Shown here: positions 29,715 to 46,470 of the stretch, in pieces | How the letters are laid out: the number at the start of each line of letters is the position of its first letter | How positions within the stretch are numbered: the stretch's first letter is position 1 | Assembly (NCBI GenBank): GCA_029959285.1 | Contig: JASCOE010000004.1 | Span: 310,001 to 374,000, forward strand | Source of the DNA: Flavobacteriaceae bacterium PS02337 | Lineage (GTDB): Bacteria > Bacteroidota > Bacteroidia > Flavobacteriales > Flavobacteriaceae | DNA length: 64,000 nucleotides | Direction: 5' to 3' | The notes under the pieces: generated by a model | Told to the model about the DNA's origin: nothing | What the model saw: only the letters and a program-made list of their open reading frames with translations | Database searches by the model: none | Position numbers and translations under genes: made by a program

Positions 29715-30959
29715 TTATCCAATAAGCTGTGTAAATAAATCCTGATTATCATTCAAATATTGAAATTCAAAACCGTTTTCCGTCATTTTTAATTTAATTG
29801 GCATAATGTCGTTCTTGTTTTTTAATTCTAAACCAACCACTACAGAACCTACTTCACGGCTGTTTTTCTTCGCAAACTGAAAATAAGTAATATCATCATC
29901 TGGACCTAAAATATTATTTACAAATTCTTTTAAAGCGCCAGGACGCTGCGGAAACTGAATCATAAAATAATGCATTAAACCTTCGTAAAGTAAAGAACGT
30001 TCTTTTATTTCAGCAGTTCTTTCAATATCATTATTACTTCCACTGACAATACAAACTACATTTTTGCCTTTAATTTTTTCCTTATAAAAATCTAAAGCTG
30101 CAATTGTCAAAGCTCCCGCAGGTTCAACAACCATTGCTTCTTCATTATACAAACGCAAAATTGTCGTACAGACTTTTCCTTCGGGAACTAGAATAATATC
30201 TTCTAAATTGTAACGGCAGATTTCGAAAGTTTTATCGCCGACTTGTTTTACGGCGGCTCCGTCTACAAATTTATCAATAGTTTTTAAAGCTGTATTTTGA
30301 TTTTCTTCAATAGAAGTTTTCATCGAAGGAGCGCCTTTTGGCTCAACTCCAATGATTTTAGTATTTGGACTTAAATGTCTGAAAACTTCAGATAATCCAG
30401 AAGCCAGTCCGCCGCCGCCAATTGGTACAAAAACATAATCGATTGGTTCTTTAAAACTTTCCAAGATTTCTAAACCAACTGTTCCTTGTCCAGCGATTAC
30501 TTTTTCGTCATCAAAAGGATGAATAAATGTTTTATGATTTTTGATGGCGTCAGCAGTTGCAGAAGCGTAAGCATCATCAAAAGTATCTCCAATTAAAACA
30601 ATTTCCACAAACGATTTTCCAAACAATTGAACTTGTTTTACTTTTTGTTTAGGAGTTGTTTTCGGCATATAAATTTTTCCTTGAATCTTTAAAAGATTAC
30701 AAGAATAAGCAACACCTTGCGCGTGATTTCCAGCGCTAGCACAAACAATTCCGTTTGCTTTTTCTTTTTCATTTAATGAAGAAATCTTATTGTAAGCGCC
30801 TCTAATTTTATACGAACGAACAATTTGCAAATCTTCTCTTTTCAATAAAATAGTCGATTCAAATTCGTCTGAAAGGTTTAGATTTTGGGTTAAAGGCGTC
30901 GCCGTAACTACATCTTCAAGTTGCTTTTTGGCATTAAGTACTTCGTTAAATAAACTCAT
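29715..30959 (-). CDS. ilvA: Threonine ammonia-lyase (threonine deaminase)
   Basis: This 414-residue PLP enzyme turns threonine into 2-oxobutanoate and ammonia, the entry step to isoleucine. K51 in SYKIRGAYNKI is the PLP lysine; CASAGNHAQGVAYSC and PIGGGGLASGLSEV are the phosphate-binding and cofactor loops. The C-terminal 80 residues (FPQRPGALKEFVNNIL, REVGSVVVGLEL) form one ACT-like regulatory domain, shorter than the double domain of E. coli IlvA, which fits the Bacteroidota type. The 345-base region upstream holds an isoleucine-rich leader and terminator, strong evidence that the enzyme is biosynthetic and attenuated by isoleucine. The other ilv genes are not in this window. Confidence 0.96.
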   Translation of the reverse strand: MSLFNEVLNAKKQLEDVVTATPLTQNLNLSDEFESTILLKREDLQIVRSYKIRGAYNKISSLNEKEKANGIVCASAGNHAQGVAYSCNLLKIQGKIYMPKTTPKQKVKQVQLFGKSFVEIVLIGDTFDDAYASATADAIKNHKTFIHPFDDEKVIAGQGTVGLEILESFKEPIDYVFVPIGGGGLASGLSEVFRHLSPNTKIIGVEPKGAPSMKTSIEENQNTALKTIDKFVDGAAVKQVGDKTFEICRYNLEDIILVPEGKVCTTILRLYNEEAMVVEPAGALTIAALDFYKEKIKGKNVVCIVSGSNNDIERTAEIKERSLLYEGLMHYFMIQFPQRPGALKEFVNNILGPDDDITYFQFAKKNSREVGSVVVGLELKNKNDIMPIKLKMTENGFEFQYLNDNQDLFTQLIG

Positions 30960-30972
30960 GATATTTTGTTTT

Positions 30973-31057
30973 TTGCCACGAATTACACGAATTTACACGA
31001 ATTTTTATTTAGAAGTTGCTCAAAAGTAATTCGTGATAATTTGTGAAATTCTTGGCT
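30973..31057. repeat. GCCACGAATT palindromic element, copy 2
   Basis: TTGCCACGAATTACACGAAT at the left is matched by a decayed complementary right arm (AATTCGTGATAATTTGTGAA, then CTTGGC). It lies in the transcribed leader between the ilvA attenuator and the ilvA ATG. It is related to 23466-23592. Confidence 0.65.
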
Positions 31058-31078
31058 ATTTAAAATCTTTTTTAAAAT

Positions 31079-31105
31079 AAAAAACCTCCCGATGTGGGAG
31101 GTTCT
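31079..31105 (-). terminator. Attenuator terminator of ilvA
   Basis: On the minus strand the stem AACCTCCC / GGGAGGTT with loop ACATC is followed by TTTTTTATTTT. It lies after the leader peptide and about 120 bases before the ilvA ATG, so it must be read through for ilvA to be expressed. Confidence 0.88.
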
Positions 31106-31141
31106 TATAAATTATATTTTTACAAACTTATATAACACCTC
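31098..31141 (-). promoter_or_regulatory. Antiterminator pairing of the ilvA leader
   Basis: On the minus strand GAGGTGTTATA (31131-31141), immediately after the leader stop codon, can pair with TATAAGAACCTC (31098-31109). It forms two five-base helices, GAGGT/ACCTC and TTATA/TATAA, with a small internal loop. The second arm includes the 5' arm of the terminator, so the two structures exclude each other. Pairing was judged by eye. Confidence 0.7.
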
Positions 31142-31145
31142 GCCA

Positions 31146-31205
31146 TTACTGCTGAATTGCAATAATGCTAATAATAGCGATAATAATGTTGTTAAAGTTT
31201 TTCAT
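31146..31205 (-). CDS. Isoleucine-rich leader peptide of ilvA
   Basis: A 19-codon frame, MKNFNNIIIAIISIIAIQQ, starts at the ATG at 31205 and ends at TAA (31146-31148). Eight of 19 residues are isoleucine, in codons 7-17, and there is no valine or leucine. It starts about 20 bases after a consensus -7 box and is followed by mutually exclusive antiterminator and terminator hairpins before ilvA. In known attenuators, ribosomes stalled at codons for the end product prevent the terminator; an Ile-only control fits an enzyme needed only for isoleucine. Too short to detect by length, it is supported by content and position. Family conservation was not tested. Confidence 0.85.
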   Translation of the reverse strand: MKNFNNIIIAIISIIAIQQ

Positions 31206-31223
31206 TTTTTGTTATCTGAATAA

Positions 31224-31255
31224 CAAAGGTATTAATTATTTTTTGAAGAAGTCAA
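31224..31255 (-). promoter_or_regulatory. Promoter of the ilvA leader
   Basis: On the minus strand TTG (31253-31255, within GTTGAC) and TACCTTTG (31224-31231) are 21 bases apart, a full match to the Flavobacterium -33/-7 consensus. The -7 box ends 18 bases before the leader ATG. Confidence 0.82.
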
Positions 31256-31304
31256 CAACTATTTTAAGTTTTTATTGAATAAAACTGAAAACAGAGACTG
31301 AAAA

Positions 31305-31844
31305 CTATTTTTTAACTGGCGGATATTGAGCTAAAATTTTGTTTACAAACTCACCAATTTTTTGATCTTTTTTGTCAATATTTCTAGTTAAAGTCCCTTG
31401 ACCTTCACCTTGCCAAATCATTTCTTTCTTTTTAGCATCAATCAAATCAATGTATAAAGTACCTTCTGTAGAAGTTGAAACAGTAGTTTGATTTCCTCCG
31501 TACATCATCCACGGATTCCATCCCCAACCCCAACCGTAACCCCAGCCGGCACTAAATTGGTTTACATTTACCTGTTCTCTAGATTTAGTAAAAATGTTTA
31601 CCAATAAATCAGGATTTTCACTTTTTGTAAGTCCTTTAGCTTGCATCTCAGCATCGATTGCTTTCAGGATACGTCTTTTATCCAAATCAGAAATCTCTAC
31701 CTTATCAATTCCGGACTTGAAAAAAGCGTAAGTCTTATAGGGCGCAAAATCGACAGTTTTGTCGTAATCAGAATATACAGTAACACTGCTGCATGAACTT
31801 AAAATCAACAGCAGTAAAATCGGAACGAATTTGAATGTTTTCAT
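31305..31844 (-). CDS. DUF4136 lipoprotein
   Basis: This 179-residue lipoprotein has its signal ending at C18 (ILSSCSS). The DUF4136 domain covers the mature part: VTVYSDYDKTVDFAPYKTYAFF at the start (residues 21-42), EISDLDKRRILKAIDAEM, the hydrophilic LLVNIFTKSREQV, a Trp- and Gly-rich stretch GWGYGWGWGWNPWMM (about 103-117), then GTLYIDLIDAKKKEMIWQG. This matches the family in order and length. The role is unknown; it is an envelope lipoprotein, one gene per transcript here. A palindromic repeat separates it from hutU, and the gene lies behind the ilvA promoter region. Confidence 0.88.
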   Translation of the reverse strand: MKTFKFVPILLLLILSSCSSVTVYSDYDKTVDFAPYKTYAFFKSGIDKVEISDLDKRRILKAIDAEMQAKGLTKSENPDLLVNIFTKSREQVNVNQFSAGWGYGWGWGWNPWMMYGGNQTTVSTSTEGTLYIDLIDAKKKEMIWQGEGQGTLTRNIDKKDQKIGEFVNKILAQYPPVKK

Positions 31845-31875
31845 ATTATTGGAAATTTAATGTTCTCGTTATCTC

Positions 31876-31940
31876 TGTCAGGCTGAGCGAAGTCGAAGCC
31901 CTTCTATTTCTATAAGCCTTCGACTTCGCTCAGGATGACA
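31876..31940. repeat. TGTCAGGCTGAGCGAAGTCGAAG palindromic element
   Basis: The left arm begins TGTCAGGCTGAGCGAAGTCG. The right arm is the complement of TGTCATCCTGAGCGAAGTCG, with only two changes. The arms leave a short AT-rich centre. It lies between hutU and the DUF4136 gene and is the shortest of three elements with TGTCAT ends. Confidence 0.78.
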
Positions 31941-46313: not shown

Positions 46314-46390
46314 AAGAAAAGAATGCAAATTTTAGAATGCAGATTTTAGATTTTTTGAAGCATTAATTTATTGGATTTCAATCACCTTTT

Positions 46391-46470
46391 GTCCCGCTAT
46401 CCGTTTCAATCTTTTATGCCGAACACCGGCATAAAAGGATTTCCACTTCTATCGGGGCTAGATTAGACCA
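46391..46470. repeat. CCCGCTATCCG ... ATCGGGGCTA palindromic element
   Basis: A central perfect hairpin TTTTATGCCG / CGGCATAAAA is enclosed by outer words GTCCCGCTATCCG and CTATCGGGGCTAG. The word GGATTTCCACT follows the hairpin. It lies between lysS and the lipoprotein pair and has no coding capacity. Confidence 0.7.

Follow-up and report, generated by a model that had tools for sequence, protein, structure and literature searches.

A putative isoleucine-specific transcription attenuator upstream of ilvA in a Flavobacteriaceae bacterium and its relatives

Introduction

The ilvA gene of Flavobacteriaceae bacterium PS02337 is preceded by an Ile-rich short open reading frame (ORF) and by a terminator lying between this ORF and ilvA. 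We consider it very probable that the element is a ribosome-mediated transcription attenuator by which isoleucine controls ilvA. The basis is its parts, their conservation, covariation (strong in one helix of the leader, helix C, and weak in the antiterminator), the geometry and a contrast in predicted folding, all of which support the ribosome-stalling design proposed in the initial annotation; from them we infer leader translation, ribosome stalling, pausing and a response to isoleucine. The element was read in a 64,000-nt stretch of contig JASCOE010000004.1, here called the window, and was then compared with relatives and with other loci of the same genome.

Results

Parts of the ilvA element

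The features of the locus, in window coordinates and in the order of transcription, are as follows.

31305 to 31844, minus strand: gene for a DUF4136 protein (PF13590, 175.4 bits), the upstream neighbour, lipoprotein-like by eye
31224 to 31255, minus strand: promoter, with TTG at 31255-31253, a 21-base spacer and the -7 box TACCTTTG at 31231-31224
31146 to 31205, minus strand: leader ORF of 19 codons and TAA, MKNFNNIIIAIISIIAIQQ, with ATG at 31205 and the stop ending at 31146
31185 to 31190, minus strand: 5' arm of helix A, AACAUU, codons N6-I7, partner 31134-31139 (88.3% of cells paired in 71 sequences)
31177 to 31180, minus strand: 5' arm of helix B, UCGC, codons I9-A10, partner 31140-31143 (90.8% of cells paired)
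31159 to 31167, minus strand: 5' arm of helix C, CAUUAUUGC, codons S13-A16, partner 31144-31152 including the stop codon (96.1% of cells paired)
31121 to 31145, minus strand: arm 2, the 5' side of the antiterminator, with UGG at 31145-31143, a bulged C at 31142, GAGGU at 31141-31137 and the inner A/U side at 31132-31121
31095 to 31116, minus strand: arm 3, the 3' side of the antiterminator, with the inner helix at 31116-31106, ACCUC at 31102-31098 and CCA at 31097-31095
31079 to 31103, minus strand: intrinsic terminator, AACCUCCC ACAUC GGGAGGUU and a T-run, about -12.8 kcal/mol
29715 to 30959, minus strand: ilvA, the controlled gene, threonine ammonia-lyase of 414 aa, from profile matches, single copy

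IlvA scored 632.5 bits against NCBIfam PRK08639 (cut-off 421) and 620 bits against TIGR02079 (cut-off 440.55), and its C-terminal regulatory domain is PF00585, as in a biosynthetic threonine ammonia-lyase. The five other matches in the genome are only 23-32% identical and of partial length.

Re-reading the leader gave Ile at 8 of 19 codons and neither Val nor Leu, exactly as first described. The terminator was likewise found where it had been placed; its arms AACCTCCC and GGGAGGTT span 31103-31083, the T-run reaches 31079, and no other terminator-like site was found in 30800-31900 (shuffle mean 0.5). Among 603 short ATG frames of 10-30 codons on both strands of the window, with nested starts counted, 18 contain at least 30% Ile, and of these 18 only the ilvA leader has a terminator within 70 bases downstream. 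A chance Ile frame was rejected on this unique pairing of frame and terminator in the window and on the retention of the leader in relatives.

An AUG overlapping the leader stop (UAAUGG) starts an 8-codon frame across arm 2 (window 31121-31147), whose conservation can be explained by the UGG:CCA pairs. Inverted AATTCGTG repeats occupy window positions 30977-31051, between the terminator and ilvA, and similar repeats precede ilvA in F. araucananum (L047) and in L083.

The promoter

The TTG, the 21-base spacer and the -7 box of the promoter described initially are all in place, the box lying 18 bases from the leader ATG; across relatives it is the -7 box that is conserved. TAnnTTTG was present in 117 of the 118 unique elements (43 of 1600 control stretches), and in 114 of the 117 its end and the leader ATG are 16-21 nt apart, whereas TTG was found 17-23 bases 5' of the box in only 38 of the 118. 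In F. johnsoniae, according to a passage on its promoters, the -33 element is far less evident than the -7 element (PMC6847099).

The leader is conserved upstream of ilvA in Flavobacterium

At 120 of 130 non-duplicate lone-ilvA loci in Flavobacterium, ilvA is preceded by a leader with four or more Ile codons. The 80 named loci were found through exact IlvA peptides and are therefore close relatives; the further upstream regions are those of L087-L115 and 80 fetched regions (71 from the genus and 9 from the family), the latter taken mostly from less similar IlvA matches. L146-L173 were scanned and excluded from the 130 because they include many duplicate named species; L175-L178 (duplicates) and L079 (contig end) were excluded as well. 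The check first suggested, conservation of an Ile-rich short frame upstream of ilvA, held in 81 of 83 upstream regions of close relatives (the window's own, 78 of the 80 named, L087 and L088) and in 39 of the 48 more distant non-duplicate lone-ilvA loci. One close-relative miss is the contig end at L079 and the other is F. araucananum, where the upstream region is a different one. The element also occurs in F. johnsoniae, a laboratory species (strain CI04, L029).

Over the 118 unique elements the leader is 16-20 codons long, with two exceptions of 12 and 25, its open frame and whole-codon length following by construction from a finder that demands an ORF with at least four Ile codons. It ends in TAA (91), TGA (18) or TAG (9). 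The 74 different leader peptides contain 4-10 Ile each, and the Ile codons are AUU (697), AUC (184) and AUA (22). Part of this codon conservation could reflect RNA structure, much of the leader being base-paired.

In the 80 fetched regions ilvA lies outside an ilvD operon in 52, of which 27 have one leader, 16 have tandem leaders and 9 have none. In all 27 regions L089-L115, ilvA lies downstream of other ilv genes, with ilvC adjacent in 24 and ilvN or ilvB detected in 3. These arrangements are clustered on an IlvA tree of 92 rows (13 changes against a shuffled mean of 44.9), in which bootstrap values are unsettled and parts are poorly resolved.

Ten of the 130 loci lack the leader, and five of the ten retain the terminator. 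Of the nine fetched loci that the finder scored as leaderless, three (L210, L223 and L231) have a degenerate appearance, and in L224 a frame containing Ile extends beyond arm 2; L218 was scored as having a leader, though its frame extends through arm 2. In L214, L220, L221, L225 and L236 the terminator stands right behind the DUF4136 gene, the leader is missing, and the interval from the terminator to ilvA contains a TATTTTTG box. This pattern fits loss of the attenuator together with gain of a new putative promoter. Loss of the leader with the terminator kept had been named at the outset as contrary evidence; it was seen in none of the close relatives and is present in this more distant five-locus group.

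The same five loci bear on another explanation, in which the hairpin is a plain terminator of the DUF4136 gene, ilvA has its own promoter and the Ile frame arises by chance from the A/T-rich sequence of the hairpin. At 78 of the 80 named loci the DUF4136 gene is found upstream in the same orientation, and at 42 of the 48 further lone-ilvA loci it lies within 1600 nt. The attenuator terminator is the first one downstream of this gene, which is in favour of the explanation, as are the five loci with their terminator and TATTTTTG box. Against it stand the -7 box before nearly every leader, the near-fixed distance of arm 2 from the stop and the covariation of the leader hairpin described below, and we regard it as very improbable.

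RNA structure and covariation

Covariation was counted on a dereplicated alignment of 71 of the 118 unique elements, with L166 and L218 left out, for structures that derive from the window's own fold and are favoured by this. Helix C, which joins Ile codons 14-15 to the stop-codon region, is the best supported, with 33 double-change cells; shuffled alignments gave 7.3 (none of 500 reached 33) and slid controls no more than 14. The leader hairpin A-B-C as a whole has 92.5% of its cells paired and 40 double-change cells against 10.1 shuffled; none of 500 shuffles was as high, and slid controls reached up to 33. A longer alternative with an outer helix was poorer (77.8% of cells paired). The initial list of parts was incomplete, having missed this hairpin between the leader codons and the stop-arm 2 region, which has the strongest covariation of all. 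It is probably a pausing or 1:2 hairpin that would couple the ribosome to the polymerase.

Arm 2 begins at the first base after the leader stop codon in the window, and the stop-to-arm-2 distance is 4 nt in 95 of the 118 unique elements. Arm 3 overlaps the 5' arm of the terminator, so that antiterminator and terminator are mutually exclusive. The antiterminator pairing is present as first proposed but is longer: UGG-C-GAGGU pairs with ACCUC-CCA, and an A/U helix lies inside. With the structure taken from the window sequence, 88.1% of its cells are paired, against at most 56.1% when slid. Its covariation is weak, with 10 double-change cells where shuffled alignments have 4.2, and one of 500 shuffles was as high; a slide of +1 gave more (13), yet with only 45.3% of cells paired. 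By eye, in L191 GCU of helix B is replaced by GUC and GGC of arm 2 by GAC, and in L213 both sides of the UGG:CCA extension are changed.

RNAalifold recovered the terminator (99.1% of cells paired in the 71 elements) and neither the antiterminator nor the leader hairpin from all 71 aligned elements; from the 118 unique post-stop stretches it likewise gave the terminator and no antiterminator. For the 47 closer elements, the first rows of the alignment, it returned UGG-C-GAGGU paired with ACCUC-CCA at -8.8 kcal/mol. The antiterminator arms shift register in the distant rows. Our confidence in the attenuator was slightly lowered by the RNAalifold results. The hairpins with covarying bases that had been sought in support of the note's reading are strong in the leader, weak in the antiterminator, and for the latter absent from RNAalifold on all 71 elements.

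At the ilvA element no T-box or riboswitch reached the Rfam gathering score. A known Rfam leader was also rejected, the scores being 30.4 of 55 bits for Phe_leader, 25.6 of 55 for Thr_leader and 20.4 of 41 for Trp_leader. The only Rfam family found in the window lies elsewhere, a Flavo-1 RNA (RF01705, 82.7 bits) on the minus strand at 46386-46463.

Predicted folding with a ribosome on the leader

Base-pair probabilities were calculated for 116 elements, on the transcript to the 3' arm of the terminator, with the ribosome footprint blocked (assumed to extend from 15 bases 5' to 11 bases 3' of the first A-site base). The mean probability of the antiterminator was 0.94 with the A site on Ile codons and 0.14 with it on the stop, and it was higher on Ile than on the stop in all 116, although in 6 of them it exceeded 0.5 even with the ribosome on the stop. 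For the window element the values were 0.90-0.99 across the Ile codons and 0.23 at the stop. In these models the contrast between a stalled and a finished ribosome is robust. The initial proposal that a ribosome at the stop would cover an arm just past it agrees with both the position of arm 2 and this predicted fall from 0.94 to 0.14.

At equilibrium without a ribosome the antiterminator was favoured (0.99 for the window element, mean 0.80), which did not uphold a further idea, that helices A and B block the antiterminator at equilibrium. Such a ribosome-free fold reads through, and the strongest-covarying helix lies within the leader; both would suit a structured RNA that senses another signal (a metabolite, a protein or an uncharged tRNA) and in which the ORF is secondary. 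However, no Rfam family was found at gathering score, leader-peptide families are among the best partial matches, and Ile-rich leaders of different sequence recur before other branched-chain genes, so that we hold such an RNA to be very improbable.

As an attenuator, the element would work as follows. RNA polymerase would start just 5' of the leader and a ribosome would begin the 19-codon frame. When charged Ile-tRNA is scarce, the ribosome would stall at the Ile codons, leaving arm 2 free to pair with arm 3; this pairing would take up the 5' arm of the terminator, and transcription would proceed into ilvA. When isoleucine is plentiful, the ribosome would reach the stop and cover arm 2, the terminator would form and transcription would stop.

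Control could in principle lie in translation of ilvA instead of its transcription, through the leader peptide or translational coupling. Leader frames in Bacteroidetes peak 11-14 bp before genes, and reinitiation has been proposed for them, as set out in a section of PMC4833913. At the ilvA element, 186 nt separate the leader stop from the start of ilvA, with an intrinsic terminator and its T-run between the two, and we give translational control hardly any probability.

Composition of the leaders

The 73 different leaders at the ilvA site contain on average 7.5 Ile, 0.3 Val and 0.7 Leu, and their Val/(Ile+Val) fraction is 0.03. The other groups were hand-picked and consist of related sequences that are not independent. 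Before IlvN2, an orphan small subunit described below, the fraction is 0.05 in first leaders (18) and 0.07 in second leaders (19). It is 0.16 in 18 leaders of ilvA-containing operons, counted one per locus, with L244-L247 and L249 represented by their Ile-only unit. Nine hand-picked ilvD leaders, with ilvA elsewhere, gave 0.52, or 0.49 with the addition of L124 and L139 (0.40 and 0.33), which had been left out. For eight of these nine ilvD loci ilvA was seen on another contig, G427 being the ninth; the ilvD-leader finder requires ATG and a terminator, and most of 30 ilvD loci gave no leader.

The direction of these fractions supports a link between control codons and the genes controlled. The idea that an Ile-only leader is peculiar to a lone ilvA was dropped because Ile-rich leaders also stand before whole ilv operons, with little or no Val in L244-L247, L249, L250 and L253. 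What stands of the initial view, that such a leader suits a lone ilvA, is that ilvD leaders are rich in Val where ilvA lies elsewhere; the exclusiveness does not stand, as whole ilv operons share leaders of this kind.

Tandem and triple leader arrays in relatives

At 14 of the 16 fetched regions with tandem leaders at the ilvA site, a 142-194-aa small-subunit-like ORF precedes ilvA; L187 and L189 have ilvB and ilvN in the interval. Some of the small-subunit ORFs at tandem sites align poorly with IlvN, and 12 of 16 passed the alignment cut.

An Ile+Val leader (MRNLIVIIAVIIIVIPQLQRMVI and similar) precedes an ilvE-like gene of 295-303 aa in L228, L235 and L241, and this gene is followed in order by ilvD, ilvB, ilvN, ilvC and ilvA; in L228 the DUF4136 gene is just before this leader. 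L244, L246, L247 and L249 have three leader-terminator units, then the ilvE-like gene and an ilv cluster ending in ilvA, with ilvC detected only in L246. L245 has a triple array alike, whose first leader starts with TTG. The first units of triple arrays have Val fractions of 0.14-0.30 in four cases.

A second locus with two Ile-rich leaders

A covariance model built from the element found three places in its own genome at E < 0.001: the ilvA element (134 bits), C33:470390 (93 bits) and the ilvD leader (53.5 bits). Directly behind C33:470390 is a weaker unit, at C33:470528 (29 bits, E 0.7). The C33:470390 locus (L336:1501-2304, G000) reads MKNLITIISIIIIIIR-stop, terminator, MKNLVQNSIIISIIIIRFT-stop, terminator, and then IlvN2, a protein of 169 aa. 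IlvN2 is an orphan acetolactate-synthase small subunit; it scored 51.7 bits against ALS_ss_C, over the cut-off, and 56.2 bits against TIGR00119, just below the cut-off of 56.9. The main IlvN, with 98.9 bits, is encoded behind ilvD and a gene called ilvB by eye, with an ilvC-like gene next, and the leader of these ilvDBNC genes, before ilvD, is MQISIIITSVVVVNVIHTSASGMV, with both Ile and Val.

All 20 second loci fetched, hand-chosen from the listed matches, have two Ile-rich leaders and then IlvN2, and the second terminator was pattern-matched in 19 of them. Of 399 genomes in the genus, 154 have a match to the covariance model at E 0.001, a figure that includes ilvD-type matches. A strict second-attenuator pattern was found in 11 of 397 family genomes against 2 for the reversed control (G210, G316), a count that gives no prevalence. 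Six of the 11 resemble tandem units by eye (G000, G317, G093, G261, G306 and G373, the last four with the GAGTCAGGCTGG form of the pattern), G127 is a doubtful case, and the remaining four seem unrelated.

At the positions aligned to N11, G14 and N29 of E. coli IlvH, which we take to be valine-site residues, the main IlvN has N, G and N, and IlvN2 of the same genome has D, R and E. The three residues are retained by 1, 10 and 5, respectively, of 21 orphan proteins; the figures are 4, 10 and 6 for 12 small subunits encoded at tandem ilvA sites and 25, 25 and 18 for 26 small subunits from ilvD-containing operons. As to valine feedback, any functional meaning of the residue loss in IlvN2 would be a guess from the alignment.

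Other leaders were seen in passing. L378 (G706:C1:612100-615000) is a third tandem array in one genome, before IlvN2 and an apparent second ilvA. In G000, a weak covariance-model match is a His-rich leader MISIQLHHHHLHYCSQAMC with a terminator before a hisG-like gene (L342:1501-1560, G000:C56:101838). A Met/Cys-rich leader MKFTVCNMMSCKMPEFSAETLL with a terminator lies at L338:1501-1569 (G000:C52:157957), where the next gene is TonB-dependent receptor-like by eye.

Discussion

Classic ilv attenuators answer Ile, Val and Leu together, and the leaders of E. coli ilvGMEDA and ilvBN contain Ile, Val and Leu codons, or Val and Leu codons. Like these, the ilvA element has a short frame of regulatory codons, alternative antiterminator and terminator structures, and an arm masked by a ribosome at the stop. 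Unlike them, it is Ile-only and belongs to a single detached ilvA; joint Ile, Val and Leu control codons were not found in the window leader, which lacks Val and Leu. Both E. coli operons are named as attenuated in a passage of PMC1183508. Branched-chain attenuation is also described for the Leu-rich ilv attenuator of S. aureus, which involves other amino acids and a whole operon (PMC5794164), and for Corynebacterium ilvBNC, again a whole operon (PMC11857589).

That no case had been described in the genus, as the initial annotation supposed, does not stand. From structured 5' regions, a passage on F. psychrophilum proposes that leader peptides attenuate amino-acid operons, and it describes the clues as strong (PMC9723704); genus, type of operon and mechanism are alike. 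The elements in that passage include pheA and hisG, and it gives no leader sequence, ilvA or isoleucine; 'ilv' and 'isoleucine' are absent from the main text of the paper (PMC9723704).

In a literature search over titles and the starts of abstracts, with few subscription journals covered, no Ile-only ilvA attenuator in Bacteroidota was found, nor were tandem amino-acid attenuators or an orphan small subunit behind them. A comparative attenuator study by Vitreschak and colleagues, 2004, reportedly included Bacteroidetes. The mechanism is already known, and the ilvA element is a new and well-supported case of it with Ile as the only input; less to be expected were the tandem and triple arrays, together with the orphan small subunit. 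The signals of the Salmonella mgtCBR attenuators differ from those of the Flavobacterium leader units, and unlike mgtCBR the related Flavobacterium loci have two or three amino-acid leader units in series. A resemblance is that two short leader ORFs are thought to control transcription of mgtCBR, which are different genes (PMC3641672).

As a tentative scheme, to which we give somewhat less than an even chance, ilvA and IlvN2, the latter behind two serial Ile attenuators, may form an Ile-only regulon. Under a shortage of isoleucine alone, IlvN2 would take the place of IlvN and so release the enzyme from feedback by valine, and the serial attenuators, two or three in number, would sharpen the response.

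The ilvA element offers a leader-peptide attenuator with a single amino-acid input that is clear and testable in a non-model phylum, whose mRNAs are naturally free of Shine-Dalgarno sequences (PMC6847099), and its own genome holds a natural control, the Ile+Val leader before ilvD. In related loci the control codons differ within one pathway and attenuators stand in series. If the scheme for the tandem pair before IlvN2 is true, isoleucine synthesis would escape valine feedback by a change of regulatory subunit.
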